From contig CM030358.1 of assembly GCA_017893485.1 (NCBI GenBank), forward strand, positions 251,079,228-251,143,227: 64,000 nt of DNA, in the 5' to 3' direction. The notes beneath the pieces were generated by a model, which saw only the letters and a program-made list of their open reading frames with translations, had not been told where the DNA came from and made no database searches. This document shows positions 3,414 to 40,887 of this stretch, one piece after another. The DNA is from Hemerocallis citrina (Eukaryota > Streptophyta > Magnoliopsida > Asparagales > Asphodelaceae). Both the position numbers and the translations under genes were made by a program. Within the stretch, counting starts at the first letter, position 1. Every line of letters begins with the position of its first letter.

Positions 3414-3491
3414 ACTGTTTATATTTTTTTGAAAAGGCATAAATACTACAACCGAGAGTATTTAAAGCTCTCAACCCCCCTTTATATCGAT

Positions 3492-5710: not shown

Positions 5711-5792
5711 ACTATTGTAGCTTCTACTATTTTCATTCTGATGTCAAGAAATGTTTTTCAATTCGAATGTATAAAGTGTGGAATTCAATGAA

Positions 5793-6846: not shown

Positions 6847-6935
6847 GTACGAGGGTGGATGTTTAGAGGTTTTTGTCATTTCTTTTTCCCGCTGTTTAGT
6901 GAACTGTTACGTAATGAGTGTGTATTATGTAACAG
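6847..6935 (+). other. Candidate 89-bp spliceosomal intron between gag and pol
   Basis: The segment begins GT (G|GTACGAG), ends AG (TATGTAACAG|G), is T-rich and has two gag-frame stops. Its length is not a multiple of three. Removing it joins the gag frame to the protease frame, giving V-I-T-G-E-L-Y at the junction, which fits the usual Tekay gag-protease linker. The joined frame from 5856 to 10249 is 4,305 nt, a multiple of three. The 3' end of the segment also encodes Y-V-T-G, echoing V-I-T-G just before it, so a duplication origin is possible. Frameshifting or simple decay are the alternatives. Confidence 0.55.
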
Positions 6936-9900: not shown

Positions 9901-10249
9901 AGCCCCGAGGTTTATAGGCCCGTACAAGATATTGAAAATGATCGGAAAAACTGCTTACCGGCTTGAGTTTCCAGAAGAGTTATCTCAGGTGCACAATGTC
10001 TTTCATGTGTCTATGCTGAGAGGTTACATTCCAGATCCGAGTCATCATTTGTCTGAAGTGCCGGAAGGTTTGCAGTTGGATCAGAATTACATCGAGTCTC
10101 CTGTCGAGATTGTTGATCGTCGAGAAAAAGTCTTGAGGAATAAGACGATACCGATGGTCAAGGTAGTCTGGAGAAACCATTTGGTTGAAGAGACTACTTG
10201 GGAGTCTGAGGAGAGGATGTTGAAGGATTATCCTGAGCTTTTTGCGTGA
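6936..10249 (+). pseudogene. pol: Tekay Pol: protease, RT, RNase H, integrase, chromodomain
   Basis: The polyprotein carries protease (FDTGSS near 6974), RT (FIDDI at about 7924-7938), RNase H ([10 protein letters not shown] near 8360), an integrase zinc-binding region with HPG and CEVC near 9025-9120, an integrase core with DFIMGLP, SNRDARF and TDGQTERVN carrying the D, D and E residues, and a C-terminal chromodomain-like tail (VKVVWRNHLVEETTWE) that in chromoviruses targets insertion to marked chromatin. The only break is TGA at 8609-8611, in the RNase H-integrase linker before RWLEVLED. Relatives have Arg there, so CGA to TGA is likely. Full length would be about 1,100 codons. It lies in a different frame from gag unless the 6847-6935 intron is removed. 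Confidence 0.92.
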
Positions 10250-11855: not shown

Positions 11856-11928
11856 GCGCAAGTAGCCAGATGGCTAGGGCGCGCTGCTGTGTTCTCTTCA
11901 GTCGCTGGTTCGAATCCCCTTAGCACCA
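11856..11928 (+). other. tRNA-like module 1 in Tekay 3' LTR
   Basis: Copy of the 3341-3413 module, with a few substitutions between the A and B boxes; both boxes are unchanged. Confidence 0.55.
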
Positions 11929-12006
11929 TATTGTTTATATTTTTTGAAAAGGCATAAATACTACAACCGAGAGTATTTAAAGCTCTCAACCCCCCTTTAT
12001 ATCGAT

Positions 12007-12081
12007 TGGCACACTCGGCCTAGTGGCCAGAGCGTGCGGCTTGCTTCTTGGTGGTTGCTGGTTCGAATCTGGGCTCGGCCA
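12007..12081 (+). other. tRNA-like module 2 in Tekay 3' LTR
   Basis: Copy of the 3492-3566 module. The B-box GGTTCGAATCT and A-box-like stretch are intact. Confidence 0.55.
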
Positions 12082-13672
12082 GTATTAAACTTTTGGGGAA
12101 AAATTATTTTTTTGGTGTTTTCGATGATTGAAAAATTATGGAAAAAAATATGGTTATTATTCTAAAAATATATGGGACTTATGAAAAATAATTTGGGAAT
12201 TATTTACATAAAATAAAACATGATTTGAGAATAAATGTGTAAATAGAACTATGGTTCTACATCTACATTTCTATGAAAATTATATCTTGCAAAAAGAACT
12301 TGAAATGAAGGATTAGAAAATTAATATGGCAAAGAAAGAAATTATCTTATGTGATGTGATGTAAATTATTCTCATTTGAGAATAGTGTAGAAATTATGAA
12401 GTGTAAATGTCCACCTTTGATTGAATAATTAGTGACGTGAGTTTTTTTATGTGAAAATAATATTTCATGAGATACATGATGAATAGTTGAATTTCATGTA
12501 TAGTTATGGACTATTTGAATGATTTAGAAATCATGATTGGAAAAGAGAAATATTCTGAGTATGACAAGTCAACATGTGAACTTATGAGTTGGAAACACTC
12601 AACTTTAGAATTTGTGAATGGGAATTGAAACAAAAGAGTAGCTAAGTCTCCCCCGGCAATTGGAAAGAAACGAAATGAAATTTGAAATGAAAGACCAAGG
12701 TTGGTCATGTTTGAATGAATGAATAAGTCCGGTTAGTGGAGAGGCTAACTCCAGTGCTTTGATTTTGTTCATGATTCTAATTCATTAGAATTAAGGATTA
12801 GTTACATAGTGAAGACGTGATGAAAGTAAGAGAAAAACATTGAGTATGAGGGCCATTGGATCAGCGGCGAGAGCGTATCCCAGGATGTCCCATGACGAGT
12901 CAGGGCGAGGATACTGCTCCAGAGTACCGTCCCGGTGGCGACGCTCGTGGGATGTTTGAAGACTACGGGTGGTGTCATGTCTATGGTAGGAGCTGAATTA
13001 CCACAGGATGCCTGCATGATGAGTCATGTGTCAGTGCGTTGGGATTCCCTCCAGGGCGCCTAGACATGAGTTCGTATGTCAGAAAACATCTAGGATACTT
13101 ACCGTAGTTACAGTAGTAGATTAAGTCATGACGAGGGATTGAACCCTACAAGATGAAGAACGGTTAAGGGCTTGCCCTCGGACCTATGTAGTATGGGATG
13201 CATAGAATCCGAACAAGTGCGCATTAGTGTCATGCAATATAAATAACTGCATTAAGGACTAAGTGCACAATCACAACACGACATCCATAGGGTAGTCCCT
13301 TTAATTTGATATGTGACAAGTTTGTGTTTGTTAAATATGGAAAATAAGTTATACTATTTCCGGCATAGAGAGGATGACCATGTATAATGTTCGTCGGTTG
13401 AATAAATTGACGTACCCACAGTCTTATATGCAGGCAAGTGACATAATAAAGATTAAAGAGGAACAGATGCTTAAATATTATTCAATGTTGTTGTACATTT
13501 ATTTCAATGTTGTAAATTTACTTCCGCTGTGCAATGTAAAGTGTAATGTTTTTATGTAAACTCTGATGTAAAGTGAAAAGTTCAAATTTTCTTGTAAAAT
13601 TGTACTAAATGAAGTGGAAAGATCCTGTAGAACATCTCAAATTCAGCTGTATTTGGGATTCGGGGCGTTACA

Positions 13673-23025: not shown

Positions 23026-23030
23026 CTTAC
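23026..23030. repeat. TSD CTTAC, left copy
   Basis: Identical to 40883-40887; it lies inside the Athila G-T-L-P-S-N-T coding sequence. Confidence 0.93.
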
Positions 23031-23632
23031 TGTTGCTGCTAATTTTGGTGTGGGAGCAAACAAATGAATTTGTGGATTCTTAGAGCAAACGATAAAACAA
23101 ACCGGTTGACCTGTTGACCTTCACCAATGTGTTGACTTGGTCTCTTGCCGCTGCTACGAACCTACAAAAAGTGCGAGACACCGGGATGGATCCCGGCGAC
23201 GTACCCTCCGACGCTCTTGTCAGTAATTTGAATGATTAAGCAAGAACTTAAAACTGGAAAAGTATTGATTACCTCTTAATGGTGGTGGATGGGGGGTATT
23301 TATAGCCGTCGTTGGGATCAGATTAGAAATGTTATCCCTGTGATCAGATTAGGAATGTAATCCCTGATCCCCAGTGAAAGGATAGATGTGAATCAGGGCC
23401 GTTGATTAGTATTAATCAGAAATCCTAATTCTATCCTGCTGGACCGGGTTCATTTCGGGTTGGGACCCGTACCCAGTTGAGGTGGATTCGTTCATGGGTT
23501 ATTGGGTCTTAAAGAAAGACCCAGTTCCCATTTCAGACCCGTTTGTAGGTGAAATTACCGTTTTACCCCTGAGCTTTAAGATTCGTGTCCGATTTGAACG
23601 ACCCCGATTTAATCCCATTTTTAGCCATATCA
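23031..23632 (-). repeat. Tat LTR, left end of the composite, minus orientation
   Basis: On the minus strand it runs TGATATGGCTAAAAATGGGA ... AGCAGCAACA, 602 bp, with TATAAATA at 23297-23304. It pairs with the plus-oriented LTR at 40293-40882; divergence between them is obvious by eye, so they are not a freshly duplicated pair. Confidence 0.9.
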
Positions 23633-23652
23633 AAAGCCCCCCACTCCTGTAG
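23633..23652 (-). other. Polypurine tract of the left half
   Basis: On the minus strand AGGAGTGGGGGGCTTTT abuts the LTR. This is the same purine tract as at 40276-40289 and 54773-54784. Confidence 0.85.
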
Positions 23653-24054
23653 ACTGAGTTTTACAGTCTTCGAGGAGTAGTTTTGTTGTTCTAATGGCGT
23701 ACGGGATTTTATCTGTGTTCTTAAGGGAGTTCGAATCTTGCTCGGGGTGCCACGGTGTTATTCTGGACTTGTAAAATGCCCAAAAATATCCTTAGAATTT
23801 TCTTGATTTTTGGTGATTTTTCCAGATTTTTCTGAATTTTTTCTCATTTTTTATTCATTTTCCGAATTAAATAATTAATTATCAAAAATATTAATTAATT
23901 ATTCTAATTAAATAATTATATTTTTCAGAATTTTAAAATAATTTTTCTGAATTAATAATTATTTTTAGAATTTTTAATTAATTTTTTTCGATTTTTAAAT
24001 ATTTTTTCGGATTTTTTAAATAATTAAAACAAATAAATAAATAAATAAAATATT

Positions 24055-24240
24055 ACCTGGACACGTGGCACATTTCTGGACGTTGATCGTGATCAGATGG
24101 CGCACATCGCAAAGCAGATCATGCTCTGGACACGTGGTGCGTTTCTGAGCGTCGATCATGATCAGATGTGCGCGCATCGTAAAGCAGATCACGTTCTGGA
24201 CACGTGGTGCATTTTTGTGCGTCGATCGTGTCGTGATGCG
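24055..24240. repeat. ~70-bp tandem repeat, three copies, with CACGTGG
   Basis: Units starting CTGGACACGTGG occur at about 24057, 24126 and 24196, each followed by GCGTCGATCGTGATCAGATG-like sequence. It lies in the 3' UTR of the left half. Confidence 0.8.
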
Positions 24241-24359
24241 ATTTTTTAGAAGATCGGATGGATTGTATGGGTCGGTGAGTTTTTTCTCCAATTTCAGGGT
24301 CGGTACTTCGGCACCTCGGCAACTGTTGAAGACCACTTTGGGATGAAGCCACGTGGCAT

Positions 24360-25260
24360 TACCACGTGGCGAAATTTTTTTTTTCGTGCTCTGGCCTTCT
24401 TCTTTCTTTCCTTCTTCTTTGCTCTGTTCTCTCTTCTTCTCCTTCGTCTTTAACTATCGTCCCATTCCTTCGGCGCCACCTCAACAGCGAGAGGAGCTCG
24501 CGTCGAAGAGGAGCTCGGCGTGGGTGAAAGGAGATGGCAGGGAGCGGGCTCAAGCTCGGCGTCGGTGAGGGTGGAGCTCATTGTTCGACCGTGGGGGAGC
24601 TCGGCATTGGCGCTCGAACGTTGAAGATGAGCTCAGAGATTGAAGATGAACTCGGGGATAATGGAGCTCGACGAGAGAGACGTCGGAGCTCGGGGGTTCG
24701 TCGAGGGAGTCGAGCTCGGCTATGGGTTCGATGGAGATGGAGCTCGCATAGGGGGAGAGCTCGGTGTTCGACCATGGGGGAGCTTGGCATCGGCGCTCGG
24801 ACGTTGAAGATGAACTGGGAGGTTGAAGATGAACTCGGAGATAATGGAGCTCGACGTGAACTCGACGAAGGAGGACGGAGTTTCGAGAGAAGTGCTCGCG
24901 ACGCGGAGGTCGACGTGGAAGGACATCGGCTGGCGCTCGGTGTTGGAGAAGTTGGCCATGGCGGAGCTCGCCCGAGGTGGGAGCTCGACGGAGCTTGGTT
25001 GCGATCGGAGCTCGCGCCGTGGATGAGCTCGCCACTGGAGCTGGAGCTCGGAAGTGGAGGCGTGGAGGTGAAGCTCGGTTCGATGTAGGTTAGCGAGGTT
25101 GGGAGCTCAGTGGAAGTGGTTCGGAGCTCGTCCATGTGGTTGGTCGAGGGAAGCGTCGGAGGTGGAGCTCGGCCATGGAGGTGGCGAGCTCGGTTTTCTT
25201 TCCTCCGGTTTTGGCGCCAAACCGGTTGAAGAAGAGGAAGGGGATGGGTGTTCGGGTTAG
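24360..25260. repeat. GAGCTCGG-rich stretch with a 183-bp internal duplication
   Basis: A segment with GGGGGAGCTCGGCATTGGCG, GTTGAAGATGA and ATAATGGAGCTCGACG at about 24592-24672 recurs at about 24776-24855. Long open frames exist on both strands because of the GC-rich periodic composition; none shows a known domain. It occupies the place where the right half has its antisense gene, so it may be a replacement or a much-altered relic of it. Confidence 0.55.
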
Positions 25261-25286
25261 GATCCCTTAACGGGTCCGAACCCGAA

Positions 25287-25315
25287 CCCCCCCCCCCCCC
25301 CCCCCTTTTTTTTTG
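25287..25315. repeat. Poly-C followed by poly-T run
   Basis: About 18 C and then about 10 T; a likely site of assembly length error. Confidence 0.85.
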
Positions 25316-25439
25316 GCTTCCTCGCTGGTTCTTGTTCGGCGAATCCGAGCACGGATTTTGAGGCGCATTTTTCGCCACTTTGCAGTTTGGTAGATCGGTA
25401 GTTTGGATTTCAGATCCGAGCAACGTGGCTCCATCTGGA

Positions 25440-25660
25440 CGGTTGATCACGATTGTGGGGCGAATCACGAGACAAGAGGCTCAAATTTCGAGAAAACGTT
25501 GTCTTGTCATTTTGTGGAGACGTGGCAAGATCTGAGCCGTTCATCATGTTCTAGCACGTTTTTTGAGACAATCTGACGGTGAAACTGGCTCAGCAATATT
25601 TTTCTCCATATGTGGAGGTCGGTACCTCGGCACTTCGGCTCGGTAGAACGGCCTTGGCGG
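25440..25660 (-). other. Left-half 3' UTR segment shared with the right half
   Basis: Matches, in reverse orientation, the stretch 35290-35560 of the right half (CCGAGGTACCGACCTCCACA and the ACGACAAGAT-type motif). The match shows that the two halves are homologous Tat elements. Confidence 0.7.
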
Positions 25661-25899
25661 AGCTCATCGAGGTGGGTTCATTGAGGTGAGCTCGACGACG
25701 AAAGAGGGGTCGAAGCTCGACGAGGAAGGGGGTCGGCATATGGGAGAGGTGACAAGCTCCGAAGCTTGGTGATGTGCTTTTTGGTTTTGGAGATTTTTGA
25801 AGAGGGGCTCCACTCCTAGGGGTGAAGAAGAGGTGCTAGGAAGATCCTCGTACGAGCCATGGGAAGACCCATTCTTTGAAGTGAGTGCAAGGAGCAACT

Positions 25900-26855
25900 C
25901 TATGGGAGAGTTTTGAGCTCCGAACTCGCTTAGAAGAGGCCCACTTTGGAGATGAGCGGAGTGAAGAGCTCGGCTCTAGGAGAGAGCCATCTGGAAGACG
26001 AGTTTGAGGATCAACTCTAAGAGAGAGTTTTAGGTTCGAACTGGCTGAGAAGAGGTCCGCCTTGGAGGTAAGCGGAGTGAAGAGCTCGGCTCTAGGAGAG
26101 AGCCATCTGGAAGACGAGTTTAAGGAGCAACTCTAGAGAGAGCTGTGAGCTCCAAACTTGTTGAGAAGAGGTCCGCTTTGGAGGCGAGCGGAGTGAAGAG
26201 CTCGGCTCTGGGAGAGAGCCATATGTGAGACGAGTGTGAGGAGGAACTCTAGGAGAGAGTTGTGCTCCGAACTTGTTGAGAAGAGGTCCGCTTTGGAGGC
26301 GAGTGGAGTGAAGAGCTCGGCTCTGGGAGAGAGCCATTTGTGAGATGAGTGTGAGGAGGAACTCTAGGAGAGAGTTGTGCTCCGAACTTATTGAGAAGAG
26401 GTCCGCTTTGGAGGCGAGCGGAGTGAAGAGCTCGGCTCTGGGAGAGAGCCATTTAGGAGACGAGTTTGAGGAGAAAATCAAGGGGAGAGCTATGCTCCGA
26501 ACTCGTTGAGAAGAGGTCCGCTTTGGAGGCGAGCGGAGTGAAGAGCTTGGCTCTGGGAGAGAGCCATTTGGAAGAGGAGTGTGAGGAGGAACTTCTAGGA
26601 GAGAGTTGTGCTCCGAACTCGTTGACAAGAGGTCCGCTTTGGAAGGCGAGCGGAGTGAAGAGCTCGGCTCTGGGAGAGAGCCCTTTGGAAGACAAGTGTG
26701 AGGAGCAACTCTAGGAGAGAGTTGTGCTCCGAACTCGTTGAGAAGAGGTCCGCTTTGGAGGTGAGTGGAGTGAAGAGCTCGGCTCTGGGAGAGAGCCATT
26801 TGTGAGACGAGTTTGAGGAGCAACTCTAGGGGAGAGCTTCAGCTCCGAACTCGCT
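25900..26855. repeat. ~116-bp tandem array A, eight copies
   Basis: The marker GAGCTCGGCTCT occurs at 25966, 26082, 26198, 26313, 26428, 26543 (variant), 26660 and 26775, giving a period of 115-117 bp. It is the 3' UTR array of the left Tat half. The apparent proteins over it are periodic artefacts. Confidence 0.93.
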
Positions 26856-27290
26856 GTTTAAGTGAGAGAATCAACGGTTGTGGGAGCAGTTTCGAATGGC
26901 GAACCACTTCTAACTCGCTTAAGAGCAAGTTATTTGAAGCGGAATCGAGCCAAGTGTTGGACTCCGAACTCGTCGTTTAAGAGAGTATCAACGGTTATGG
27001 GAGCAGTTCCGAATGGCGAACCACTTCTAACTCGCTTAAGAGCAAGTTATTTGAAGCAGAATCGAGCCAAGTGTTGGACTCTGAACTCGTCGTTTAAGAG
27101 AGTATCAACGGTTGTAGGAGCAGTTCTGAATGGCGAACCACTTCTAACTCGCTCAAGAGCAAGTTATTTGAAGTGGAATCGAGCCAAGTGTTGGACTCCG
27201 AACTCGTCGTTTAAGAGCTTAGTGAGTTGCGGGAGCAGCCATGTAGAAGAATCTGGACTCCGAACTCACCATTTAACGAGTCGTAGATGT
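26856..27290. repeat. ~117-bp tandem array B, three to four copies
   Basis: TCAACGGTT recurs at 26871, 26988 and 27105. The unit includes CTCCGAACTCG, shared with array A, so both come from one ancestral monomer. The reverse complement forms the right-half array at 34802-35265. Confidence 0.93.
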
Positions 27291-27552
27291 GACTCGAAGA
27301 GATAGAGAAGAGGCAAGAGCAATAATTTTCAATGAAAAATGTAAAGTTTTATTGAGATAAACTAAGTGGCCGCTTCAATAGGGCAAGCCATTATTACATG
27401 CTATTGTCCGAGTTACAAGCATCGGCCTTATTGAAAATCAAGATCCTACTTCTACAATAAGGTGAAGACCTCTTGGGAGGAGCTGGGTCTTGAAGCTCGA
27501 CGGGCCTTTCTGTTCGTTTGTTGGCTCCTCAGGGGGGAAGCTCGGCCCCCTC

Positions 27553-28734
27553 TCATTGGATGAACTTGGTCAGGTGCCCCCTCTGTATGAGTTCTTTGAT
27601 CTCCTCCTTGAGAGCCCGACAATCCTCCGTGTCGTGGCCGTGGTCCCTGTGAAAGCGGCACCACTTATCTTTGTTCCTCTTCTTGCCAGGGGTATTCATT
27701 CTAGGGGGAGCGCGGAGTAGTCCTTCCTTGTCCACCTCCATAAGAACTTTTGATATATTAGTAATGAGGGTCTTAAAGCTTTCGATGTGGTCTACGGGGT
27801 CGGTCTCCCCGGAATAGGTCTCGAACTGTGGAGGCTTGAAGCATATTGGAATGGGTGCCTCCATGATGGTATGAGAGAAAGGAGGTCGGCTCGGACGGAG
27901 GGTCCTTCCTCTAATCTCTTCTTCTCTGTCTAGCTGACCCAAGCGCCTCTCCATTTCGTGGAGACGACGGTAGACGGTGTCATCCCTTCGACGGTATTCA
28001 AACGAGCCTCTGGACTCATCTTCGTACGAGGGAGAGCGGGGGCTATGACGACGGTAGTCCCGAGAGTGGCGAGGACTAGGAATGTGCTGGGGGTTGCTAG
28101 GAGCTGGAGGAGGAGTCAGGGAATGTCGGCGAGGACTTTGGATCGGAGGAGGAGTGGGGACCCTTCGAGCATCATTATGGTTGGGTCGGTGATGGAGGGC
28201 ATGCAAAATGGTTGCTTGGAATTGCTGGAATTCGTCTCGGGTGAAAGGGGCATTATCACCCCTCGGTGAGCGATGCCTTCTTCTATAGTGCTCGGGGGAC
28301 TCTCTCCGTCTTTGGTGAGGCGGGGACCTCCTATGTTCTCGGCGACGAGGAGATCGCTCATTTGGACGTTGTTGGCGGAAGACTCCCTCTCGGGCCCGCC
28401 TTTCATCCAAACGGCCGCGAAGATCCTCTTCCTTATGTCGATTGTTAAGGGTGTTACGGAGGTCATTGGAGGCTCGGAGATTGTGAGATGCCATGGAATT
28501 AGTTGAGGGGTTGTGCACGGAGACGTGATCGTGTTGAAGAGGTTGTTTCTGAGGATTGGGATGGGAGCCCCCCGCACCGGCGTTCTGTGGAGGAGGTTGG
28601 TCCTGCCGCGGGGCCTGGTTAGGTTGAGGGATAGGTCCTGTTGGCTGGACGATTTGGAGGGGGACCTCCTGCTGTGGTTGAGGAGGAGTGGGTCCACGGT
28701 TGGACCCTCTGGATCTTAGCTGTCGGGGAGGCAT
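27553..28734 (-). CDS. gag: Shortened Tat Gag of the left half (393 aa, open)
   Basis: The ATG at 28734 opens MPPRQLRSRG, 50 bp after the PBS, as in the other Tat copies. The frame is uninterrupted: a Pro/Gln-rich start, a long Arg/Ser/His-rich region, the conserved YRRLHEMERRLGQLDREEE segment, then DHIESFKTL. At that point the capsid-like core found in the right half (STREWYSRL to FTAEARSI) is missing, and the frame passes straight to MNTPGKKRNKDKW and a zinc knuckle C-x2-H-x4-H-x4-C. The deletion kept the frame. Downstream there is no protease, RT or integrase, so this RNA would need proteins from another element. It may still bind RNA but probably cannot form particles alone. Confidence 0.8.
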   Translation of the reverse strand: MPPRQLRSRGSNRGPTPPQPQQEVPLQIVQPTGPIPQPNQAPRQDQPPPQNAGAGGSHPNPQKQPLQHDHVSVHNPSTNSMASHNLRASNDLRNTLNNRHKEEDLRGRLDERRAREGVFRQQRPNERSPRRREHRRSPPHQRRRESPEHYRRRHRSPRGDNAPFTRDEFQQFQATILHALHHRPNHNDARRVPTPPPIQSPRRHSLTPPPAPSNPQHIPSPRHSRDYRRHSPRSPSYEDESRGSFEYRRRDDTVYRRLHEMERRLGQLDREEEIRGRTLRPSRPPFSHTIMEAPIPICFKPPQFETYSGETDPVDHIESFKTLITNISKVLMEVDKEGLLRAPPRMNTPGKKRNKDKWCRFHRDHGHDTEDCRALKEEIKELIQRGHLTKFIQ

Positions 28735-28783
28735 GGCTGGGCAGACCTGACCGATGGGAAGAGGAAGGGCTGTTATTCGCTGT

Positions 28784-28801
28784 TTCCCACAGACGGCGCC
28801 A
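28784..28801 (-). other. PBS of the left half
   Basis: On the minus strand TGGCGCCGTCTGTGGGAA, the Tat-type PBS. The matching tRNA was not assigned. Confidence 0.88.
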
Positions 28802-28804
28802 ATC

Positions 28805-28844
28805 TATTGCTGCTAATTTTGGTGTGGGAGCAAACAGATGAATT
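28805..28844 (-). repeat. 40-bp remnant of a U5 end between two facing PBSs
   Basis: The stretch TATTGCTGCTAATTTTGGTG ... CAGATGAATT matches the outer 40 bp of the LTR at 23031-23072. Beyond AATT (28841-28844) the sequence is no longer LTR but the PBS of the plus-strand half. No complete 5' LTR exists for either half. Confidence 0.88.
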
Positions 28845-28861
28845 GGCGCCGTCTGTGGGAA
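28844..28861 (+). other. PBS of the right half
   Basis: TGGCGCCGTCTGTGGGAA, identical to the left-half PBS but facing the other way. Confidence 0.88.
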
Positions 28862-28910
28862 TCGAAAAAGCAACCTGACCTAACTTCATCAACGATACTA
28901 GTTTCAAGTC

Positions 28911-30572
28911 ATGCATCTAAAACAGAAGGGGAAGGCAGTGGTCTCCAACCGAAGAACCACTTCTCTTCCTCCTCTCCCTCCTCCGGTTCAAGGTGCTCCT
29001 ACTCAACAGGCCCCTCAAGGGTCTCGGGGGGCTCCCGTCAGAGTCATCCGAAGCAACATCCTCCTCACGACCAAGTCACGGGTCCCAATCCTTCAGTTGA
29101 ATCCCTGGCTTCTCAAAGCTCTCCCGAGCGGGATCTTCGTCAAGTAATTGCCGACCGCCAAAAGGGGGTCGACCTTAGAACTCATCTGAATGGATGGCGG
29201 GCCCTTGGTCGAGTCCATCAACCCGAGAACTCACGGGCTTCAAGAATTCGAACCCCCCGACGACCGAGGACTAGAAGATCCCCTCCCCCAAGGAGGCAAA
29301 GAGAGTCCCCTCAGCATCATCGGCGGAGAACTCATTCTCCAGTAAACCGAGCCACACATAGGGACCGCCAAGCTGGAGAGGCACTAGTCACAAGGGCATA
29401 TCTTCAATACTTCCAAGCGACAGTCTTAAGGGCCCTCAATATCGCCCCAAAGAACGACCAGAGGCCACCTACTCATGAGCTAGCTAGGACCCACTGCCTT
29501 CACACTCTCAGTCCTCGTCCTTCTCCAAGCTACCATCGCCGCAGCCCCAGTCCATCCTCGTACGAAGATGAGTCCCGGGGCTCGGCAAGATATGATCAAA
29601 GAGAAGACTCAGTCTACCGCCGTCTCCATGAGATGGAGAGGCGCCTCGGCCAAATTGACAAGGAAGAAGAGCAACGGGCGATAAACCTCCGCCCGAGCAG
29701 ACCTCCATTCTCCCGCACCATCATGGAGGCCCCCATCCCAGAGAACTTCAAGCTGCCTCACTTCGAGACGTATACCGGGGAGTCGGACCCTGCAGATCAC
29801 ATAGAGAGTTTCAAAACTCTCATGATGATCCACCATGCTTCAGACGCCATCCTCAACAAGATCTTCCCTGCCACGCTGAAGGGGTCTGCTCGAGAATGGT
29901 ACTCTCGACTCGTCCCGGCCTCCATCTTCTCATTTGATCAGTTCGAAGGGCTCTTCCTTACTCATTTCGTGAGTAGCCGCCGAGCTGAGAAAACAAGTGT
30001 ATCTTTGGTGACCCTCAACCAAGAAAAGGGTGAACGCCTAAGGGATTACGTTCGACGCTTCACCGCCGAAGCCCGGTCCATTCCCCCCCTCAACCAGTCA
30101 GTAGCCTCTGCCGCATTCGAGCGCAACGTCACTAATGCCAACCTCAGGGCCATCCCTTGCCAAGAAGCCTCCTCGGGACTTCTCAGAGCTCTTACTTAGG
30201 GTGGAGAAGCACATACGGGCGCAAGAGGCTCTCAACCCCCTTGCTCTTGAGGAGACATCTTCCGAGAACAAACGGAAGAACACAAGTGAAGAGGGGTCCC
30301 AAGAAGCTCCAGAAGGACAATGGCGGACAGCGCCGACCTCCCCCCAGATTCGAAAAGTTCACTCCTCTTAACGCCAACATTTCCACAATTCTCATGGAAG
30401 TTGAGAAGGAAGGGGTGCTACCCCCTGCCCCGAAAATGAACACCCCCGGCAAAAAGAGGGACAAAGAAAAATGGTGCCGCTATCATCGGAACCATGGCCA
30501 CGACACCAATGATTGTAGGGCCCTGAAGAACGAGATAGAAGCCCTCATCCAGAGGGGAAACTGGCTAAATTC
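28911..30572 (+). pseudogene. gag: Tat Gag of the right half, frameshifted
   Basis: The ATG at 28911 (MHLKQKGKAVVSNRR) lies 49 bp after the PBS and matches the other Tat starts; the upstream ATG at 28838 overlaps the PBS and is rejected. The protein has the basic N-terminal region, YRRLHEMERRLGQIDKEEE (about 29615), the capsid-like core (ESDPADHIESFKTLMM, REWYSRLVP, FTAEARSI) and a zinc knuckle CRYHRNHGHDTNDC near 30475. Frame changes occur between about 28950 and 29050, near 30150, between about 30250 and 30330, and near 30558 at the junction with pol. No working Gag can come from this copy as it stands. Confidence 0.88.
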
Positions 30573-33500
30573 GTGAGAAAGGACCGAACTGACCTTCCGC
30601 CTCCTCCTCGGGGGGCTAACAAGCGTACCGAACAACGCGATGAGACGCCCGAATTCGAAGAGGAGCGTGTCCTGCACCTCATTCATGGGGGCCCGATGGG
30701 GGGCCCCTCCAACTCCTCTCGAAAGGCGTTTATAAGAGAAGTTAATTCGGTTCGCGGCACACCTCCTCCTAAAGGCCTCGGAGTACCTGTCACATTCTCA
30801 GATGAAGACCTTGAGGGTGTCCGAACCCCCCATTGTGACGCACTTGTCATCAACCTCCATATGGCAAACTTTAAAGTGGAGAGGATCCTGGTGGACAATG
30901 GCAGCTCCGTTAACATCCTCTTCCTCGCCGCTTTCAAAGGTCTCAAACTGTCCCGAGACAGACTTAAGCCCGTCGGCTACACACTCCATGGGTTCACGGG
31001 AGTGCCTGTGACTATTGAAGGGGTGATCACCCTGGATGTAACCGCTGGCAAAACTCCTACTACCCGAACGGAGCCGATGGACTTCATGGTCGTTGATGTC
31101 CCTGCTGCTTATAATGTGATACTGGGCCGACCTGGCCTAGCTGCCCTCGAGGTCGTCCCTTCCGCTTATCACCTCAAGATGAGGTTCCCCACCCGGGCAG
31201 GAGTAGGGGAAGTAAGAGGCAGTCAGGAAATGGCGCGCAAATGCTACATGACCTCTACTGAGGGTCCAGTCCTCTCTCTCGAAACTCTTGAAATCCCCCA
31301 AGATGGTGTCCGGCCAACATCTGAGCCAGTGTATGAATTGGAGGAATTGCTCTGTTCTGAGCAAGATCCGAGCTGCAAGTTCTTTATCAGCAAGACCCTC
31401 CCATCAGCCCTAAGCTCGGACATAGTTCAATGTATTAGAAAGAACCGCGACCTCTTTGCCTGGTCAGCCGCCGACATGCCTGGAATTTCGGAAGAGCTTC
31501 TCGTCCACCATCTGAGTGTTGCACCGGGGTCCAGACCGGTTCAACAGAAGAGGCGCAAATTTGCTCCCGAGCGCCAACAAGCTATAAAAGAAGAGGTGGA
31601 CAAGATCCTCAAGGCTCGGTTCATACAGGAGGTCAATTATCCCGAATGGCTCTCAAATGTTGTAATGGTAAAGAAGACCAATGGGAGTTGGAGAATATGT
31701 ATCGACTTCACCGACCTCAATAAAGCATGTCCCAAAGATCCATTTCCTCTCCCAAGTATCGACACCCTGATCGACGCAACTTCGGACCATGAACTCCTCA
31801 GCTTCATGGACGCCTTCTTCGGCTACAATCAGATTCGTATGTTTCCCCCGGATATCTCGAAGACCTCCTTTGTAACCGATCAGGGCCTCTACTGCTACAG
31901 GGTAATGCCTTTCAGATTGAAGAATGCAGGTGCCACTTATCAACGCCTCGTCAACAAGGTTTTTCAAGCACAGATCGGCCGAAATATGGAAGTATATGTT
32001 GACGATATGCTTATGAAGAGCATCCATGGGGCCGATCATGTGGCCAATCTGCAAGAGGCGTTCGATGTACTCAGGAAGCACGATATGAGACTCAATCCGA
32101 ACAAGTGTGCGTTCGGAGTCTCGTCGGGGAAATTCCTAGGCTTTATGGTCAGCCAAAGAGGAATCGAAGCGAACCCCGAGAAGATTAAGGCCATATTGGA
32201 CATGGCTCCCCCAAAGAATGTTAAAGAGGTTCAAAGGATAACAGGTCGCCTTGCTGCCATAGGGAGATTCCTTTCTAAGTCAAGGGAAAAGTGTCTTCCC
32301 TTCTTCAAAGCTCTCAGAGGGGCAAAAGGCTTCGAATGGGGACAGCAGCAACAAGACTCATTCGACCAGCTGAAGGCTTACCTAGTCAATCCTCCTTTCC
32401 TCAGCAAACCTGTTCCCGGGGAAGCCCTCTACCTCTATACTTAGCCGCCTCCGAACAGACCCTCAGCACTGTCCTTGTAAGGGAAGAAGATAAGACTCAA
32501 AAGCCCATCTATTACGTGAGCAAGGTACTTCGGGATGCCGAGCTCCGCTACCCAAGGATAGAGAAGATGGCATACGCCTTAGTTATGGCCGTAAGAAAGC
32601 TTCGCCCATATTTCCAGTCCCACTCGGTGGTCGTTCTTACCGACCAACCGTTGAAGCAAGTCCTTCACAAGCCGGAGACTTCCGGTTGTCTCATGAAATG
32701 GTCTATCGAGTTGAGCCAGCATGATATAACATATCAGCCTCGAACCGCGATCAAGGCTTAGGCCTTAGCTGAACTCATAGTTGAAAGCACCATTCCCGAG
32801 GTCAGTCAAGCGTCAAACGGACCTCCTATTTGGACAGTATATGTTGATGGATCCTCTTGTACCGAAGGGAGTGGAGCCGGGTTTATTCTGGCCGGCCCAG
32901 ATGACTTCATCCTCCAATACTCCCTCTGCATCAACTTCAAGGCCTCCAACAATGAAGCAGAATATGAAGCCCTTATAGCCGGTCTTGGAATGGCCCGCAA
33001 GGCAGGGGCACAATGCCTCCGCATATTTAGTGACTCTCAGCTAGTCGTGAATCAAGTCCTGAGCGAGTATGAAGCGCGAGATGACCGAATGGCTAAGTAT
33101 CTAGCCAAGGTCCAAAATCGAATGGCTAAGTATCTAGCCAAGGTCCAAAATCTCATGGCTCTCTTCGAAGAGGCACTTATTCGGCGAATCCCGAGGGAAG
33201 AAAATGCCCAAGCAGACGCTCTCTCCAAGTTAGCCTCTTCCTCCCTCCAAGGTCTCGAGCGGACCGTTTTGATTGAAGTGCTCCTGAAGCCGAGCATAGA
33301 AGAAGAAACTCCCGACTCCATGGAGTCGCTGCCGGTCCAACTTCAAGATAATTGGATGAAACCCCTGGTAGAATTCCTAAGGGATGGGCTCCTCCCCGAA
33401 GACCCTAAGGAAGCTCACCGTGTCAGAACCAGAGTGGAGCGGTACACCATTGTAGAGGGGGTCTTGTACAAACGCTCCTTCACACAAATTGACGACAGAC

Positions 33501-34605
33501 CTTATCTGAGGTGCCTCTCCCTCGAACAAGCCACATACGCCTTGCAAAAGCTTCACGAAAGCATAGGCGGAGCACATTCAGGGTCCAGGTCCCTTGCTCG
33601 GAAGGTGTTGAATTATGGATATTTCTGGCCTGCCCTCTTACAAGACGCCGAGCGACATGTTCGGTAATACAGCTCTTATCAAAAGCACTCCAACATCCGT
33701 CGCCTCCCACAAGCTCGGCTCGCCACCCTATTAAGTCCTATCCCATTCGCAATGTGGGGGATGGATTTACTAGGACCGTTCCCGCCAGCTCCCGGCCAAC
33801 TCAAATTTTTAGTCGTGGCAATCGACTATTTCTCGAAGTGGATAGAGGCCGAGCCCTTGGCCGCAATCACTGAGAACAAAGTACTCCAGTTCTTTTGGAA
33901 GAACGTCATCTGCAGGTTCGGCGTCCCTCGAGTCCTCATAACCGACAATGGAACACAGTTTACAGGGGCCTCCTTCCGAGCTCTGTGTGAAGACCTCGCC
34001 ATCCAACAACGCTTCTCCTCTGTCTCCTACCCTCAATCAAATGGCCAAGTGGAAAACGCCAATCGACAGATCCTCTCCGGAATCAAGAAGAGGTTGGATA
34101 AGTCCGCTAAGGGTTTATGGGTTGATCAGCTCCCGAACGTACTGTGGAATTACCGCACTACCAAACGGACCCTCACAGGAGAGTCGCTGTTTAACCTCAC
34201 CTACGGGGCCGAGGCTGTAATCCCCCTGGAAGTCGGTGTAACCTCTCCTCGTCTTATTGCTTATGAAGAAGAGCAGAATGCCAGAGAGCTCCGAGCAAAT
34301 CTGGACTTGATCGATGAGCTCCGTGAAAGAGCTGCCATTCGTCAGCAAAGCTATCGGAGAAGGATCGAGCTGGCCTATAATAAGAGAGTCCATCCTACCG
34401 ATCTCAAAGAAGGGGACTTAGTCCTCAGAAAGTTAGCTATCTCGTTCCCCAGTCAGAAGAGCAAGCTAGCTCCAAATTGGGAAGGACACTACAAGGTCAC
34501 CAAAGTAGTTCAGCTAGGAGCCTACCGTCTAGAAGACCTGAAGGCAGAGAGATTCCCAGGACTTGGAATGCCGACCATCTCTTGAAGTACCAAGAGAGCG
34601 CATGA
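30573..34605 (+). pseudogene. pol: Tat Pol of the right half: protease, RT, RNase H, integrase
   Basis: Protease has [10 protein letters not shown] near 30893; RT has [11 protein letters not shown] and YVDD at 31995-32006; the RNase H pieces include YVDGSSCTEGSGAG near 32838 and SDSQLVVNQV; integrase has DLLGPFPP, ITDNGTQF and SNGQVENANRQ. Breaks are a 2-nt gain near 32435, TAG at 32759-32761 (relatives have Gln), TAA at 33665-33667 and a frame change near 34553 just before the end (WNADHLLKY, stop at 34603). The integrase zinc-site cysteines are now Tyr (YSSYQKH). A 33-bp in-frame tandem duplication lies at about 33086-33151. Gene order PR-RT-RH-INT with no chromodomain fits Tat. Confidence 0.92.
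33086..33151 (+). repeat. 33-bp in-frame tandem duplication within Tat pol
   Basis: The unit encoding RMAKYLAKVQN occurs twice in a row with identical sequence. The duplication adds 11 residues next to the archaeal-type RNase H region without shifting the frame. Confidence 0.95.
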
Positions 34606-34801
34606 ACGCCTCTCCAAGTACCATCAGATGTCGAACCATTCCTTTCCCTTCACTTGTATTTTACTTTTGCTTTTTTATTTCTCCCATGTAATAACGGCTC
34701 GCCACTTAGAAGCAGCCGAGTATTAGTTTTCAATAAAGAACATTTTTTCTTCATATCTTACTTGTGAATTGCTTGTATCTTTCTTATTTTACCTTCTTTA
34801 T
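34606..34801. other. Short pol to array spacer
   Basis: AT-rich spacer of about 200 bp between the pol end and the 116-bp array. No gene is seen. Confidence 0.6.
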
Positions 34802-35265
34802 ACTCTAACGACGAGTTCGGAGTCCAGCACTTGGCTCGACTCCGCTTCGTAGGCTCGCTCTGAAGCGAGCTAGAAGTGGTTCGCCATTCGGAATTGCTCC
34901 CACAACCGTCGAAACAAACTCTAACGACGAGTTCGGAGTCCAACACTTGGCTTGACTCCGCTTCGTTGGCTCGCTCTGAAGCGAGCTAGAAGTGGTTTAC
35001 CATTCGGAATTGCTCCCACAACAGTTGAAACAAACTCTAACGACGAGTTCGGAGTCCAACACTTGGCTCAACTCCGCTTCGTAGGCTCGCTCTGAAGCGA
35101 GCCAGAAGTGGTTCGCCATTCAGAATTGCTCCCACAACCGTTGAAACAAACTCTAGCGACGAGTTTGGAGCCCAACACTTGGCTCGACTCCGCTTCGTAG
35201 GCTCGCTCAGAAGCGAGCTAGAAGTGGTTCGCCATTCGGAATTGCTCCTACAACTGTTCGTCAAA
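34802..35265. repeat. 116-bp tandem array, four copies (right half 3' UTR)
   Basis: GACGAGTTCGGAG or its variant starts at 34810, 34926, 35042 and 35158, an exact 116-bp period. It is the reverse complement of array B (26856-27290), as expected for the inverted right half. Confidence 0.95.
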
Positions 35266-35776
35266 AATCACATCATTGAACCCACCTCGATGAGCTCCGC
35301 CATGGCCGTTCTACCGAGCCGAGGTGCCGAGGTACCGACCTCCACATATGGAGAAAAATGCTGCCGATCCAGTTTCACCGACAGATTGTCTCAAAAAACG
35401 TGCTAGAACATGATGAATGACTCAGGTCATGCCACGTCTCCACAAAACGACAAGATAATGTTTTCTCGAAATCTGAGCATCTTGTCTCGTGATTCGCGCC
35501 ATGATCATGATCAACCGTTCAGATAGAGCCACGCAGCTCGGATCTGGGATCCGTACTATCGATCTAACGAATAACAAAGTGGAGAAGAATGCACCTCAAA
35601 ATCCATGCTCGGAATTGCCGAACAGGAAGCAACACACGAACACCACAAAAAAAATAAAAGAACTTTTATTAAGGACAAAAACATCCAAGTTATTACAACG
35701 GACAAAAAATCCAAGTTACAAGCCCAAGCTATTACAACAAGGTGCTACAAAAATTCTAAAGTATAATACAACTCTT

Positions 35777-36493
35777 TCAACGCCTCTTCGGGACAGGGAC
35801 GTTCTGGTTTAAAGAGACACGAGGGCGGCGCCGCTTCACCTCCGAGCTCGTCTCTACACCCACAAACCGAGACGCTTCCTCGGCGCTGCCTCTGATAGTG
35901 GCTCCAACCGAGGCTCCGCTAGACGAGATGGCTACGCCACTCTGGGCGTCGGCCGGGCTCCGACGAACGATAGGTGGACGAGTCGCGAGTTCGTAGAAAG
36001 AGATTCCCTTCTCACTTTCCTCGCGGGTGCACGAAGTGCTTCGGACGTTAATCCTCATGGGCTGAGGTTTAAGGCGAGCAACTTCCTCTTCAAGTTCGAC
36101 GATTCTATCCTTCAAAGTATCGTCTTTCACTGACATCTTGAACCGAGGAAGTTTTGCTGAGCTCGTGTCCCCGGCACAATCACTTATGATTCGGCGAAGG
36201 TTGGTCACTTCGATGCTCTTGTCGACCGTAACCCTCTTTAGCTGCTCAACCTTCGAAGCTAGCTCGTCGCGCTTGGCCAGGGCCGAGGTTAACTCGTCCT
36301 CCTTCGCCGAGAGTTCTCCTTTGACTATCTGCAAGTGACGAATCTCAGCCAATAACTCGCTGTTCGTCTTCTCCACGTTGAATAGCACCCTCTGATTAGC
36401 TCAACCTCGCCCTCGAGACGAGCTTCGTGCGATCGCTTGAATAATTCCGTTCGCTGCCGAGCCGCTGCGGCATCCGAACCAAGTTCGACAATC
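35777..36493 (-). pseudogene. Second antisense coding block, coiled coil
   Basis: The minus-strand open frame ends at 35777. It has heptad-rich coiled coil (LLAEIRHLQIVKGELSAKED, LASKVEQLKRV, IVELEEEVARL), then a Ser/Arg-rich tail ending VPVPKRR. The frame listed from 36388 starts at GTG, not ATG. Upstream, from about 36493, another frame (IVELGSDAAAARQRTELFKR) follows a good acceptor TTTTTCAG; the two frames differ by one nucleotide near 36390. It could be an additional exon of the antisense gene upstream of it (38826-36661) or a separate broken gene. No family recognised. Confidence 0.5.
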
Positions 36494-36660
36494 TGAAAAA
36501 CCAAAGCATTCTATTGGGAGATGAGTTCCGAGCCAAACACTTAAACGAATTCAAAGAAAAAAAATTCTTTCATTCATGTCGAAAAGAAGTGGTGGCTAGT
36601 CCGCTATAAGGCTTTACAAAAAAAAAAGAGAAAAAGAGATTCATGCAAAGGACGGGGAGA

Positions 36661-38826
36661 TCAAGGATCCACCTGAGGCGACGGGTCGATCACAGACGCC
36701 TCGCCAAATGGTCCCTCGGCCCCCGTCGCCCCGGCTTGGGGGTCGGCAGCCACGGTCACGGGGTCCGCAGGCACCTCCTCGTCCCGCTGGTCGCCCTCCT
36801 CCCCTTCTCCTTCCTCTACTTCGCTCTCCACCTCCTCGCCGGGCCACAGGCGATATCCCACTCTTTTGAAGCCGGGGACACGTGCCTCGACGTGGTCAAG
36901 CGCTCTCGCATAGGACAGCTCCATGTTCCTGGCCATATGCTTCTTCGCCTCGGCTTCAACCTCCTTCCTGGCCACCTCCGCCGCGGAGTCCCTCTCCGCC
37001 TTCGCCGCCTCCAAGGCCTTCGCCGATGCGGCCAGCTCCTCGGCAGCTTTAGCGACCTTGGCGACCTCCGTGGCGAGCTGCTCATCAGCTCGCTCCAAGG
37101 CCGTCTCAAGATCGGCAACCCGAACCTCCAAGTCCTCCGAGCAGCGCCGCTCCGCCTCGAGCTGCTTCACCGCCCTCGCCTTCTCCGCCCTGTCCTTATC
37201 ACAGAGGGCTTTCAGCTCCTTCTCCTGCTCGGCGAACTCCTGAACAAGGTGGCCGAAGTGGCAAGTGGCCTGCAATGAATGAGCGTTAGGTGGTTGTAAA
37301 ATCCGAGCTATGGACTTAAAGAAATTTTTAAAGAATGATGCTTACCGACATGAGCGACCGAGCAATCTCGTAAGTGTCATCCCTGGTCGTCCCCGCCTTC
37401 AGAGCGGCTCGGTCCTTTGGGGTCGCGAGATGCTTGACGGCCTGCATACACATCTGCGAATCACTAAGAAAGCCGTTGTGGTTCTTCACCCGCCAGTCGG
37501 GGACGAACAGATTCTTGTGAGCCTCGGTCAAAATCTGCTCGGCCTGAGGCGTCAAAGGCGGGGCCTGCAGAGCCAGCGCCGCCGAAACTGAAAAGGCCTC
37601 ACTGGCCGGGGCAGAAGAGGCCGGAGCAGGTGGGTCTACAAGGACGACCATCGACGGAGATGGTGCCTGAAGAGCAGGGGTAGGGCAGGCAACTACCGAG
37701 GGAGTCTTGGAAGGTCGTCCGGATGTGAGCCCGGTGCTCGGCTTCTTCCTCTTCCTACCATCGGCAACCTTGCCTCGCTCGGACATCATTGCCGTGAAGT
37801 CCATCTTCAGCGCCTCTGTTCCAAACAACGAAAACCAAAAGACAACAAGTTAGAAGATCGCACAAGAAAGAAAGAAAAAAAAATGCAGCGAGATGTCAAG
37901 AGCATACTCGGGTCGATTGGACTAAGGCCCGACCCGTGTAGCACCTCCTCTGTCATTCCTCTCCAGCTTAACATCGGGAGAGCAATGAGCTTCGCCGCCA
38001 CCTCCTCCTCGTCCGGACTCAGCACTGGGTCGGCCCTCGAAAACTTTGGCACTTCTTCCTTCCACCGAGTCGGAAAGTCCAGCCTCGAGGGTCCCTTCAA
38101 CAGAAAAAACTTCTCCTTCCAACCTTTTATCGAATCCGGATTCTCTATGAGCTTAACGCCTCTCCGAGGTGACAAGTAGTAGCGAGGCTCGCCCTTCGTC
38201 ATCCAGTTGATCCGATACAGACTCCGAAGGATTACCAGGTTTGGCTTGACCTCGGCGATGCGACATTGCAGCAAAAAGGCGAGCACGTGGTGCCAGGTGT
38301 TCGGCATAAATTGCATCGGTGCCAGACAATACCAGTGGAGAACCTTCAACACGAAGGGATGCAGTGGGAAGCACAAGCCGCTGCACAAAGAGTCGAAGTC
38401 GAACACGCACGTGTCCGGCGACAGCACGGTGTTTGCTCGCATCCCAGGGCCGGAGAGGATCAGTTTGTACTCCGGAGGGATGACGAACCCCTTTCTGATC
38501 CGGAGGAGATCCCTCTCAGATAACACCGAAGCAAGCTCGTCCACCTCGGTGAACTCCCTCGGGGCGTTCTCCTCGTAAACTGCTGACCGACCAACGATCG
38601 CCTTCTCCAGCATATCACCCTCGTACTGCCTAATGCCGACGTGTCCAGACAGCACACCAGGATACTGACCCGACTCAGGGGCTCGCCTCTCTGGCTCTAC
38701 GATCTCCTCGACTATGGACGACCCTACCACTTTCTTCCTCTTTCTCCGACTCGCTACTTGAATTCTCTCCTCGGCGCCACTATCTCCAGAGGACGATGCC
38801 TCACTTCCCGAGTTTACCCTTGACAT
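36661..38826 (-). CDS. Three-exon antisense gene of the Tat element (putative gypsy-type transposon protein)
   Basis: Exons on the minus strand are 38826-37908, 37815-37346 and 37269-36661. The introns are 92 bp (37907-37816) and 76 bp (37345-37270), both GT-AG with T-rich 3' ends. The exons total 1,998 nt: 665 codons and a stop, with no interruption. Start MSRVNSGSEASSSG. The first exon resembles the plant family annotated as putative gypsy-type transposon (Pfam PF04195, from memory): YKLILSGPGMRANT, CFPLHPFVLKVLHWY, LAPMQFMPNTWHHVLAFLL. Exon 2 is Pro/Ala-rich. Exon 3 is a long Glu/Ala/Lys coiled coil. Antisense ORFs between pol and 3' LTR are known in some Tat elements such as Grande. Its function is unknown. 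It is open while the sense gag-pol is ruined. Confidence 0.8.
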
Positions 38827-39046
38827 CTCTAAAAAATATCTTAGGCAAAAACACTGACCTTGATGTGACGTAAACTTGGAAGTGACGTGCACGGTCGGAA
38901 TTTCTTCGCCGGAAATTGCCTAGCCCACGCGATAGCTAACACCACCACCGTGGAGCACAAACCACCTCTAGCAGAGCAAAACTGAGAGTAAAAGTAAAAA
39001 TTCAAAGTGAAAGAGAGAAATGTGCTAGGGGGTGGGGAGAGTGGGG

Positions 39047-39053
39047 ACTTATA
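39047..39053 (-). promoter_or_regulatory. TATA box of the antisense gene
   Basis: On the minus strand CTTGGCTATAAGTCCCCACT, then C-rich and CT-rich leader sequence, about 220 bp before the ATG at 38826. The decayed second copy has a TATA box and C-rich stretch at the same place (53088-53095). Confidence 0.55.
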
Positions 39054-39189
39054 GCCAAGAGAGCGACGTTTGGGCTCCCTAGGCATTTAGGGGCCCACTA
39101 AAGGAAGGCAAAACGACAAAACGGAGAGTTGCGACAATTCAAGACAAGAACTCGTCAAAACGCTCAACTCCATCACTAGGCGACCAGCG

Positions 39190-39850
39190 CCTCGACGTGC
39201 CACCGAACCGCCGTTCTACCGAGCCGAGGTGCCGAGGTACCGACGTCCACATATGGAGAAAAGTTCTGCCGAGCCAGAATCACCATCGGATCGTTCCAAA
39301 ATCCATGTCGAAACTTGATGGACGGCTCAGATCGCGACACACCCACAAAATGACAAGATAACGTTTTCTCGTGATCTGAACCTCGTCCTCGTGATTCGCA
39401 CCGTGATGGATGCTCAGGATCATGCCACGTACCTCGGCAGATCCCAGCGCTCCGAGCCGAGCTGCCGAGGAGCCGAGCCGAGGTGCCGAGGTACCGACCT
39501 CCACATATGAAGAAAAATTCTGCCGAACCAGAATCACCTTCCGATCGCTCCAAAATTCGTGTCAAAACTTGATGGACGGCTCAGATCGCGCCACGCCCAC
39601 AAAACGACAAGATAACGTTTTCTCGTGATCTGAACCCCGTCCTAGTGATTCGCACCGTGATGGACGCTCAGGATCATGCCACGTAGCTCGGCAGATCCCA
39701 GCGCTTCGAGCCGAGCTGTCGAAGAGCCGAGCCGAGGTGCCGCGGTACCGACCTCCACACGCGGAGAAAATACTAGCCGACCCACTCAGATCGTCCGATC
39801 CCCCAGAAAATCGCACTCGGCAACGATGAAGGGTCCAGATCGCGTCACGT
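39190..39850. repeat. ~254-bp tandem repeat, about 2.5 copies
   Basis: GAGCCGAGGTGCCG recurs at 39221, 39475 and 39729. The unit also includes GACCTCCACATATGGAGAAA and GATCATGCCACGT motifs. The open frames in it are repeat read-through. Confidence 0.92.
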
Positions 39851-40275
39851 CATAATTCGGTATTAAAAATTAATTTTTATTTATTAAAATTATTTTATTT
39901 ATTTAAAAATTGCAAAAAATTGGTTAAAAATTGGGGAAAATTAATTAAAAATTCTAGGAAATAATTATAAATTCGGAGAAATATTTTGATCCCCTGAGAA
40001 AGTAATTATTGCCTAGAATGGCTGATTAAGACCCCCGGACGACGAATCAACACTTCGCAAAATTAAATAAGTGATCCGAAAGATAGATAAAAATTAAGGA
40101 AAGATGCCAGAAAACCAGAAGTGCTCAAGAACGTCTTAGAGCATGCAACTAACCCGGAAAATCACCATACTGCCCCATGCAAAGAATCGTCACCCCTCGT
40201 TCGGACTCCGATACAACTCTGAAAGCCATTGAAACAGTAAAACTACTCCTCAAAGACTGAACCATCTCAGCCTTT

Positions 40276-40289
40276 AGGAGTGGGGGGAC
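40276..40289 (+). other. Polypurine tract of the right half
   Basis: AGGAGTGGGGGGAC immediately precedes the plus-oriented LTR. Confidence 0.88.
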
Positions 40290-40292
40290 TCG

Positions 40293-40882
40293 TGATATGG
40301 CTAAAAAATGGGATTAAATCGGAACCATCCAAAGCGGGCCCGATTCTTAAAGCCTAGGGGCAAAATGGTAATTTCACTCCACAAACGGGTCTAAAGTGGG
40401 TTCTGGGTCTTTTCCCCAAAGGCCCGATAACCCACGAACGGATCCACCTCAACTGGGTACGGGTCCCAACCCAAAATAAACCCGGTCCAGCAGGATAGAA
40501 TTAGGGTTTCTGATTAATACTAATCAACGGCCCTGATTCACATCTATCCTTTTACTGGGGATTAGGAATTACATTCCTTATCTGATCACAGGGATTACAT
40601 TCCTAATCTGACCTCAACGGCGGCTATAAATATCCCCCATCCACCACCATTAAGTGGTGATCAATCTTTTGCCAATTTACGCTCTCTCATAATCTTTTCT
40701 GGTTATTGACTTGAGCGTCGGAGGGTGCGTCGCCGGATCAACCCCGGTGTCTCGCACTTTTTGCAGGTTATGGCAGGTGTAACGGCCAAGCTCCGGCGGA
40801 ACAGGTTTCGGGTTTGCTGTTTAAGTTTTCCAAGAATCCACAAATTCATCTGTTGGCCCCCACACCATATTTAGCGGTAACA
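40293..40882 (+). repeat. Tat LTR, right end of the composite, plus orientation
   Basis: TGATATGGCTAAAAAATGGG ... TTTAGCGGTAACA, 590 bp, TATAAATA at 40625-40632. U3 and R match the left LTR, but the last ~150 bp after CGCACTTTTTGCAGGTT differ strongly except for the terminal 40 bp. Confidence 0.92.
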
Positions 40883-40887
40883 CTTAC
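40883..40887. repeat. TSD CTTAC, right copy
   Basis: Matches 23026-23030. Confidence 0.93.

Follow-up and report, generated by a model that had tools for sequence, protein, structure and literature searches.

A Tat-type composite retrotransposon in Hemerocallis citrina with inverted long terminal repeats, two outer U5 ends and reciprocally mosaic halves

Retrotransposon complexes that contain more than one element body within a single insertion were described by Sabot and Schulman (2007), who explained complexes in direct orientation with one target site duplication (TSD) by template switching between co-packaged RNAs (PMC1950507). Here we analyze a composite of 17,852 bp at positions 23031-40882 of a 64,000-nucleotide stretch of Hemerocallis citrina DNA (C1:251079228-251143227, hereafter the window). 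Comparison copies were taken from the same 3.78-Gb genome, which is assembled in 701 contigs. Like the complexes above, the composite is one insertion with one 5-bp TSD and two element bodies. The complexes, however, have their bodies in direct orientation, with three long terminal repeats (LTRs) of which the outer ones are highly similar, whereas the composite has halves in opposite orientation, two LTRs of different type, the unique 5′ (U5) end outermost on both sides, and no central LTR. In place of a third internal LTR in the same orientation, it contains only a 39-bp U5 stub.

The composite also shares features with other known systems. Recombination between LTR retrotransposon family members during transposition, as proposed here, is described in the accessible part of a study of transposition bursts (PMC5668417). 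Retroviral 2-LTR circles, as presented in the accessible part of PMC3148978, involve host end joining of complementary DNA (cDNA) ends, as the composite may, but they are circular, unintegrated, and formed when a single molecule joins to itself. Inverted LTRs also occur in tyrosine recombinase elements such as DIRS-1; in the portion of PMC5633606 available to us, this group is described as having a tyrosine recombinase in place of an integrase and circular intermediates, whereas the composite has an rve integrase domain (1.2e-15), primer binding sites (PBSs), and a 5-bp TSD. No match to a tyrosine recombinase was found among the 10 window proteins scanned. DIRS elements are also not known to have a TSD, in contrast to the composite. 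The products of family-member recombination during bursts are reportedly ordinary direct-LTR elements, one per insertion, unlike the composite. A limited search of the open-licence literature for inverted or head-to-head LTRs returned, in the parts of the sources available, DIRS-1 and a locust gene carrying one LTR in inverted orientation, neither of this form, and no unit in opposite orientation with two U5 ends. Within such limited searches, the statement in a preliminary description of this locus that no plant Tat copy of this form had been described still stands.

The composite lies inside a gag coding region, which we take to be of the Athila type, and CTTAC is found on either side (23026-23030 and 40883-40887). 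The left LTR (23031-23632) is on the minus strand and the right LTR (40293-40882) on the plus strand, so that the U5 end of each is outermost; the right outer end at 40882 reads TAACA. The identity of 5 bp at two fixed places has a probability of ~0.0011 by chance, given the base composition of the window. When the composite and one CTTAC are removed, the flanks form a single uninterrupted gag frame (..KFTEKTTGTLPSNTVTNRKEHVKAITLRSGRK..; ..TGTLPSNTVTNRKEHVKAITLRSGRK..). Because the joined flanks stay in one frame, the target site appears to have neither lost nor gained a base, and this exact target position is evidence for a single insertion that is independent of the chance of the TSD. The LTR positions and orientations, the CTTAC flanks, and the resumed gag codons had all been reported in the preliminary description and were confirmed here. 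An ordinary insertion has two direct LTRs, with the unique 3′ (U3) end at one side and U5 at the other, and a 5-bp TSD. The composite departs from this arrangement of LTRs but has the TSD.

At the center of the composite, the order on the plus strand is a reversed PBS (28785-28801, minus strand, left half), ATC, 39 bp of reversed U5 (28805-28843, minus strand), and a second PBS (28844-28860, plus strand, right half) that is not preceded by a 5′ LTR. The two PBSs thus face each other 42 bp apart with the U5 stub between them, and a full LTR is absent. The two halves meet at a 3-bp shared ATT (28842-28844), common to the stub and the presumed GAT-PBS border of the right half. Since there is a TSD, an exact empty site, U5 at both ends, and no full central LTR, integration by two U5 ends is near certain, and the two-U5 integration of a head-to-head molecule, as proposed in the preliminary description, is strongly supported.

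A probe of the junction gave 46 matches in the genome. Among the 40 places scored out of 3,399 candidates, no full-length copy of the junction was found other than the window itself (219 bits; next 124). Fourteen probe matches ran through both PBSs of the query and were suspected to be facing pairs; all were fetched, and each had a single PBS in an ordinary LTR-PBS border. All fetched neighbors (L002-L028) likewise had ordinary LTR-PBS borders.

The sources of the two halves can be traced to two families among the ordinary copies in the genome. Family X (L029, L031, and L033) contains gag followed by pol that matches the right half, and family Y (L035, L037, and L039) contains gag followed by repeats and a 3′ body, both matching the left half, and lacks pol in that position. 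Family Y presumably resembles the TR-GAG elements, in the sense of two LTRs and gag without pol. Direct LTRs and a 5-bp TSD with 0-1 mismatch were found in 5/6 parent-family elements inspected; the 3′ LTR of the X element L003 was not found within 20 kb. We examined the linkage between LTR type and gag type in 26 elements, which were chosen by likeness to the junction and are not a random sample. The LTR was nearer the right LTR of the composite in 9 of the 10 elements with X gag (the other was a tie) and nearer the left LTR in all 7 with Y gag; the 9 elements left out had other or partial gags. One of these, L042 (C6:268220250-268225150), is a mosaic with an LTR nearer X, a weakly X-like gag (68%), a Y-like body (80%), and a border different from those of the composite. 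A second test on 26 partly overlapping loci, in which gag was typed by the 330 nt next to the PBS and the LTR by its middle part, gave the same linkage in 6/6 X and 13/13 Y loci, with 7 loci uncounted. Both halves of the composite violate this linkage. The LTR parts of the two halves are 82-87% alike, the U5 part being compared over 54 nt only.

The left half, on the minus strand, begins at its outer end with a Y-type LTR, which is 95% identical to the 5′ LTR of the Y element L009 and 83% to the X element L003. The LTR is followed by a Y-derived body without pol (23633-27767), which contains 115-117-bp tandem repeats (25900-27217) and a segment with no or weak matches (24431-25230). The sequence then changes from Y to X at a shared CTCAT (27764-27768), and the remainder is an X-derived gag (27768-28784), 96% identical to X29 (L029) and 94% to X31 (L031) over 1,038 nt. 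The two positions connected by this switch, 1038 in X and 1536 in Y, are non-homologous. In 50-nt bins from the PBS to position 1038, identity is 86-98% to X31, 92-100% to X29, and 72-94% to X33; past 1038, Y35 leads at 84-98%, except for a single bin at 78%. The open reading frame (ORF) of the left-half gag (27559-28803, minus strand) has no Pfam match. CTCAT-GCTAAT is present in both families. In the search for this switch point, 40 places were scored out of 4,130 candidates: the window, one place on C3 matching over the full length (86%), 37 matching on the Y side only, and 1 on the X side only. None of the 26 linkage elements matched across the left border.

The right half, on the plus strand, starts after its PBS with a Y-derived gag (28861-30298) that matches Retrotrans_gag (PF03732, 1e-13) and is 93% identical to L035 over 1,449 aligned nt. 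It changes to X at CCAA (30299-30302), here at homologous places. The X-derived pol (30303-35230) encodes reverse transcriptase, RNase H, a second RNase H-like domain, and integrase, in the order RVT_1, RT_RNaseH_2 (weak, below cut-off), RVT_3/RNase_H, and rve. A second RNase H-like domain between RNase H and integrase is the hallmark of Tat elements, and its presence places the right half in the Tat type of Ty3/gypsy. In 50-nt bins, Y35 matches at 86-100% to ~1450 and X31 at 88-100% thereafter; in 200-nt bins from 30431, pol is 92-98% identical to X elements except in one bin (81%). The right LTR is X type, 94% identical to L003 and 83% to L009, its first 340 nt being less clear-cut. The 3′ region (35231-40292) between pol and LTR is mostly unmatched in the fetched copies, with no or weak matches for most of 35631-39230. 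The search for the right switch point scored 40 of 4,501 candidates, and no second copy was recognized among these 40 places or the 26 linkage elements; only the window matched at 100%. The other 39 places, judged by identity alone, matched at 82-88%, as expected for uninterrupted Y (Y35 itself gives 81%), and those linkage elements that matched across the border did so at 71-85%, as for uninterrupted X or Y copies.

The 3′ region of the right half also contains long reverse-strand ORFs within 35783-38919. One of them (37813-38919, minus strand) matches Transposase_28 (PF04195, 1.4e-9), and further ones lie at 35783-36400 and 36667-37341 (both minus strand). Arrays of 115-117-bp repeats are found in both halves (25900-27217 and 34802-35374) and are 80-87% alike between them.

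Taken together, the left half consists of Y LTR and body with X gag, and the right half of Y gag with X pol and an X-type LTR. The two are reciprocal chimeras with sharp borders, and the same mosaic is obtained with 200-nt as with 50-nt bins. The X sequence from 1038 to 1278 (X31), 1488 (X29), or 1529 (X33) and ~80 nt of Y (1457-1536) are present in neither half, and therefore nothing was copied twice. The preliminary description regarded the halves as different subfamilies, which is incomplete, as each half is itself an X/Y mosaic. Its proposal of two RNA templates gains more support from this than was known at the time, because both halves are chimeras. We considered and rejected a self-primed hairpin of a single cDNA, in which the sequence after the join would copy the X gag before it; it is Y gag. 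A crossed first-strand transfer only, which swaps the LTR and keeps the same body, was replaced when comparison of whole elements put the exchange in gag.

The U5 stub is of the Y type and is assigned to the missing 5′ LTR of the left half. It differs from the left outer LTR at 1 of 37 bases and from the right LTR at 6 of 37. The single difference from the left LTR is C/T in a CTG (CTG/TTG). The stub ends in TA, not in the terminal CA, before GAT; this is a C to T change at a CHG site, as is the CTG/TTG change. CHG sites are often methylated in plants. In L009, L010, and L011, the 5′ LTR likewise has TA before GAT, whereas CA is retained in the 3′ LTR, likely through recurrent C to T change at a CAG site. 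By its sequence, the stub is the left half's own U5, and it is consistent with a left cDNA whose second strand transfer was internal.

We believe that the composite probably arose by one integration of a head-to-head cDNA dimer after template exchange between X and Y. The exchange likely took place within one particle, the mosaic itself being what points to co-packaging. The fuller account, in which one particle with an autonomous and a gag-only RNA produced two cDNAs with reciprocal exchange and both products were kept in one two-U5 integration, is about an even call. In this account, RNAs of X and Y would be packaged together, and two minus-strand cDNAs would be started, one with Y and the other with X as template. 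Close to the 3′ portion of gag, the cDNA begun on Y would move to the X RNA and the one begun on X to the Y RNA, with the result that each RNA would have its 5′ part copied once. The second switch would be forced if, behind the first, RNase H degraded the 5′ part of the X RNA; the first cDNA having consumed this part, the second would go to Y, which would explain the absence of duplication. In retroviruses, the minus-strand start may move to either RNA and RNA breaks can force a switch, according to the accessible part of PMC3187697. For the left cDNA, the second strand transfer would then have been intramolecular, and synthesis would have halted once 39 nt of this cDNA's U5 had been copied; the right cDNA would have ended at or just beyond its PBS. 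The unfinished 5′ ends are joined through 3 shared bp, and either a template switch or end joining may have made this join; end joining by the host is established for retroviral cDNAs, as stated in the part of PMC3148978 available. The outer ends of the pair are normal U5 ends, and integrase would have inserted the pair with a 5-bp TSD, as the ends, the TSD, and the target frame indicate. Of the earlier proposal of a head-to-head cDNA made from two RNAs, the head-to-head integration is thus retained; synthesis head to head by reverse transcriptase is not required, as end joining of two unfinished cDNAs fits equally well.

Several observations weigh against this interpretation. An ordinary-looking element on C3 (L061/L062, C3:191238000-191245960) has a left border identical to the base, together with a different X-like gag and an X-type U5. 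L061 is 76% identical to the left half over 1,438 aligned nt spanning the border, with Y35-like sequence after it at 93%, and the L062 piece contains an LTR in direct orientation that is 96.9% identical to the 5′ LTR of L061 over 224 nt, with 3.9 kb between the pieces. Because L061 shares this border, the left chimera could predate the insertion; judged from the sequences, the border may be either a hot spot or an inherited feature, gag and LTR having been exchanged afterwards. In addition, the final 5 kb of the right half is absent from the fetched X copies and two parts of it (35231-35630 and 39231-39830) match Y (L035) best, at 78-93%, so the X origin of this half rests on pol and LTR. The stub is short, and the X element L007 carries a similar U5 end. 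Each genome search scored 40 of 3,399 to 4,501 candidates. It is quite improbable, though in keeping with L061 and with L042 as an X-LTR/Y-body mosaic, that two ordinary chimeric source elements existed first and that a head-to-head join of unfinished cDNAs from these elements was integrated through its two U5 ends, with no exchange in that cycle. L061 differs in gag and LTR type, the right switch has no recognized second copy in the 40 scored places and 26 elements, and the exact reciprocity would have to be a coincidence.

A later inversion would give the same reciprocal, non-overlapping pattern with each sequence used once, which also weighs against template exchange. Here, a dimer of pure Y and pure X would be integrated by two U5 ends, its central 2.5 kb would be inverted, and a deletion would occur at the left border; parts of the halves are indeed inverted repeats. 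The preliminary description held that the subfamily difference argues against a later inversion, an argument that fails as it was put, because an inversion in a dimer of pure halves mimics the pattern. We nevertheless consider the inversion unlikely, because the stub matches the left LTR and because of where the exchange points lie and how low the identity is there. The exchange would have occurred in gag, where identity is ~70-75%, and not in the available 364-bp block with 88% identity (25326-25689 and 35268-35631), a second event is needed because the left border, unlike the right, is at non-homologous places, and the resulting Y-type U5 before X gag would require a plus-strand start transfer between molecules. 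Another variant concerns the joining step alone, and its likelihood overlaps with those of the other readings: two complete cDNAs could have been joined at their U3 ends and integrated by U5, with the central LTR palindrome later deleted to the stub. This is possible but doubtful. Retroviral cDNA end joining is known from 2-LTR circles (PMC3148978, accessible part) and the join has short shared sequence, but an extra deletion with its endpoint no more than 3 bp from the right PBS is needed; otherwise, the two are indistinguishable by sequence. An assembly error that fused two ordinary insertions would be very improbable, as unrelated insertions in two Athila copies rarely share both the TSD and the exact gag position, and the join has no LTR. 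Least credible is the merger of two adjacent ordinary insertions by a later deletion. Recombinant complexes are known in plants, with 20 in ~7 Mb of Triticeae sequence (PMC1950507), but they lack a shared TSD, whereas the composite has U5 outermost on both sides and sits in a target whose frame resumes exactly.

Other elements were observed in the window. Further LTRs of a related type lie at 54789-55429 (plus strand) and 62330-62902 (minus strand) with their U5 ends inward, the latter followed by a PBS (62310-62326, minus strand) and with a gag-like stretch on the same strand (57762-58287). They probably represent two independent elements rather than another instance of this structure. A repeat of more than 3 kb occurs in direct orientation at 1832-5132 and 10345-13646, with 8.5-kb spacing around ORFs at 5775-10246, and inverted at 58996-62094. 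This set looks like a long-LTR element, which we assume to be of the Tekay type, and a solo LTR.

The composite is evidence, at the genomic level, that concerted integration by the integrase of a plant retrotransposon can be completed in vivo when both ends are U5. This mode of insertion lies outside the standard life cycle, and the composite may preserve a trace of the joint copying of RNAs from two different elements. Should both chimeras date from the same cycle, the composite also shows that a single co-packaged pair of RNAs can give rise to two cDNAs, that exchange between these can be reciprocal, and that a gag-only element and a related autonomous one were packaged together. If this happened in one particle, having the composite would be equivalent to recovering the two products of a single recombination event between retroelements. 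Such insertions may be counted in any assembled genome by a simple signature, which consists of facing PBSs, U5 at the outer ends, and one TSD.

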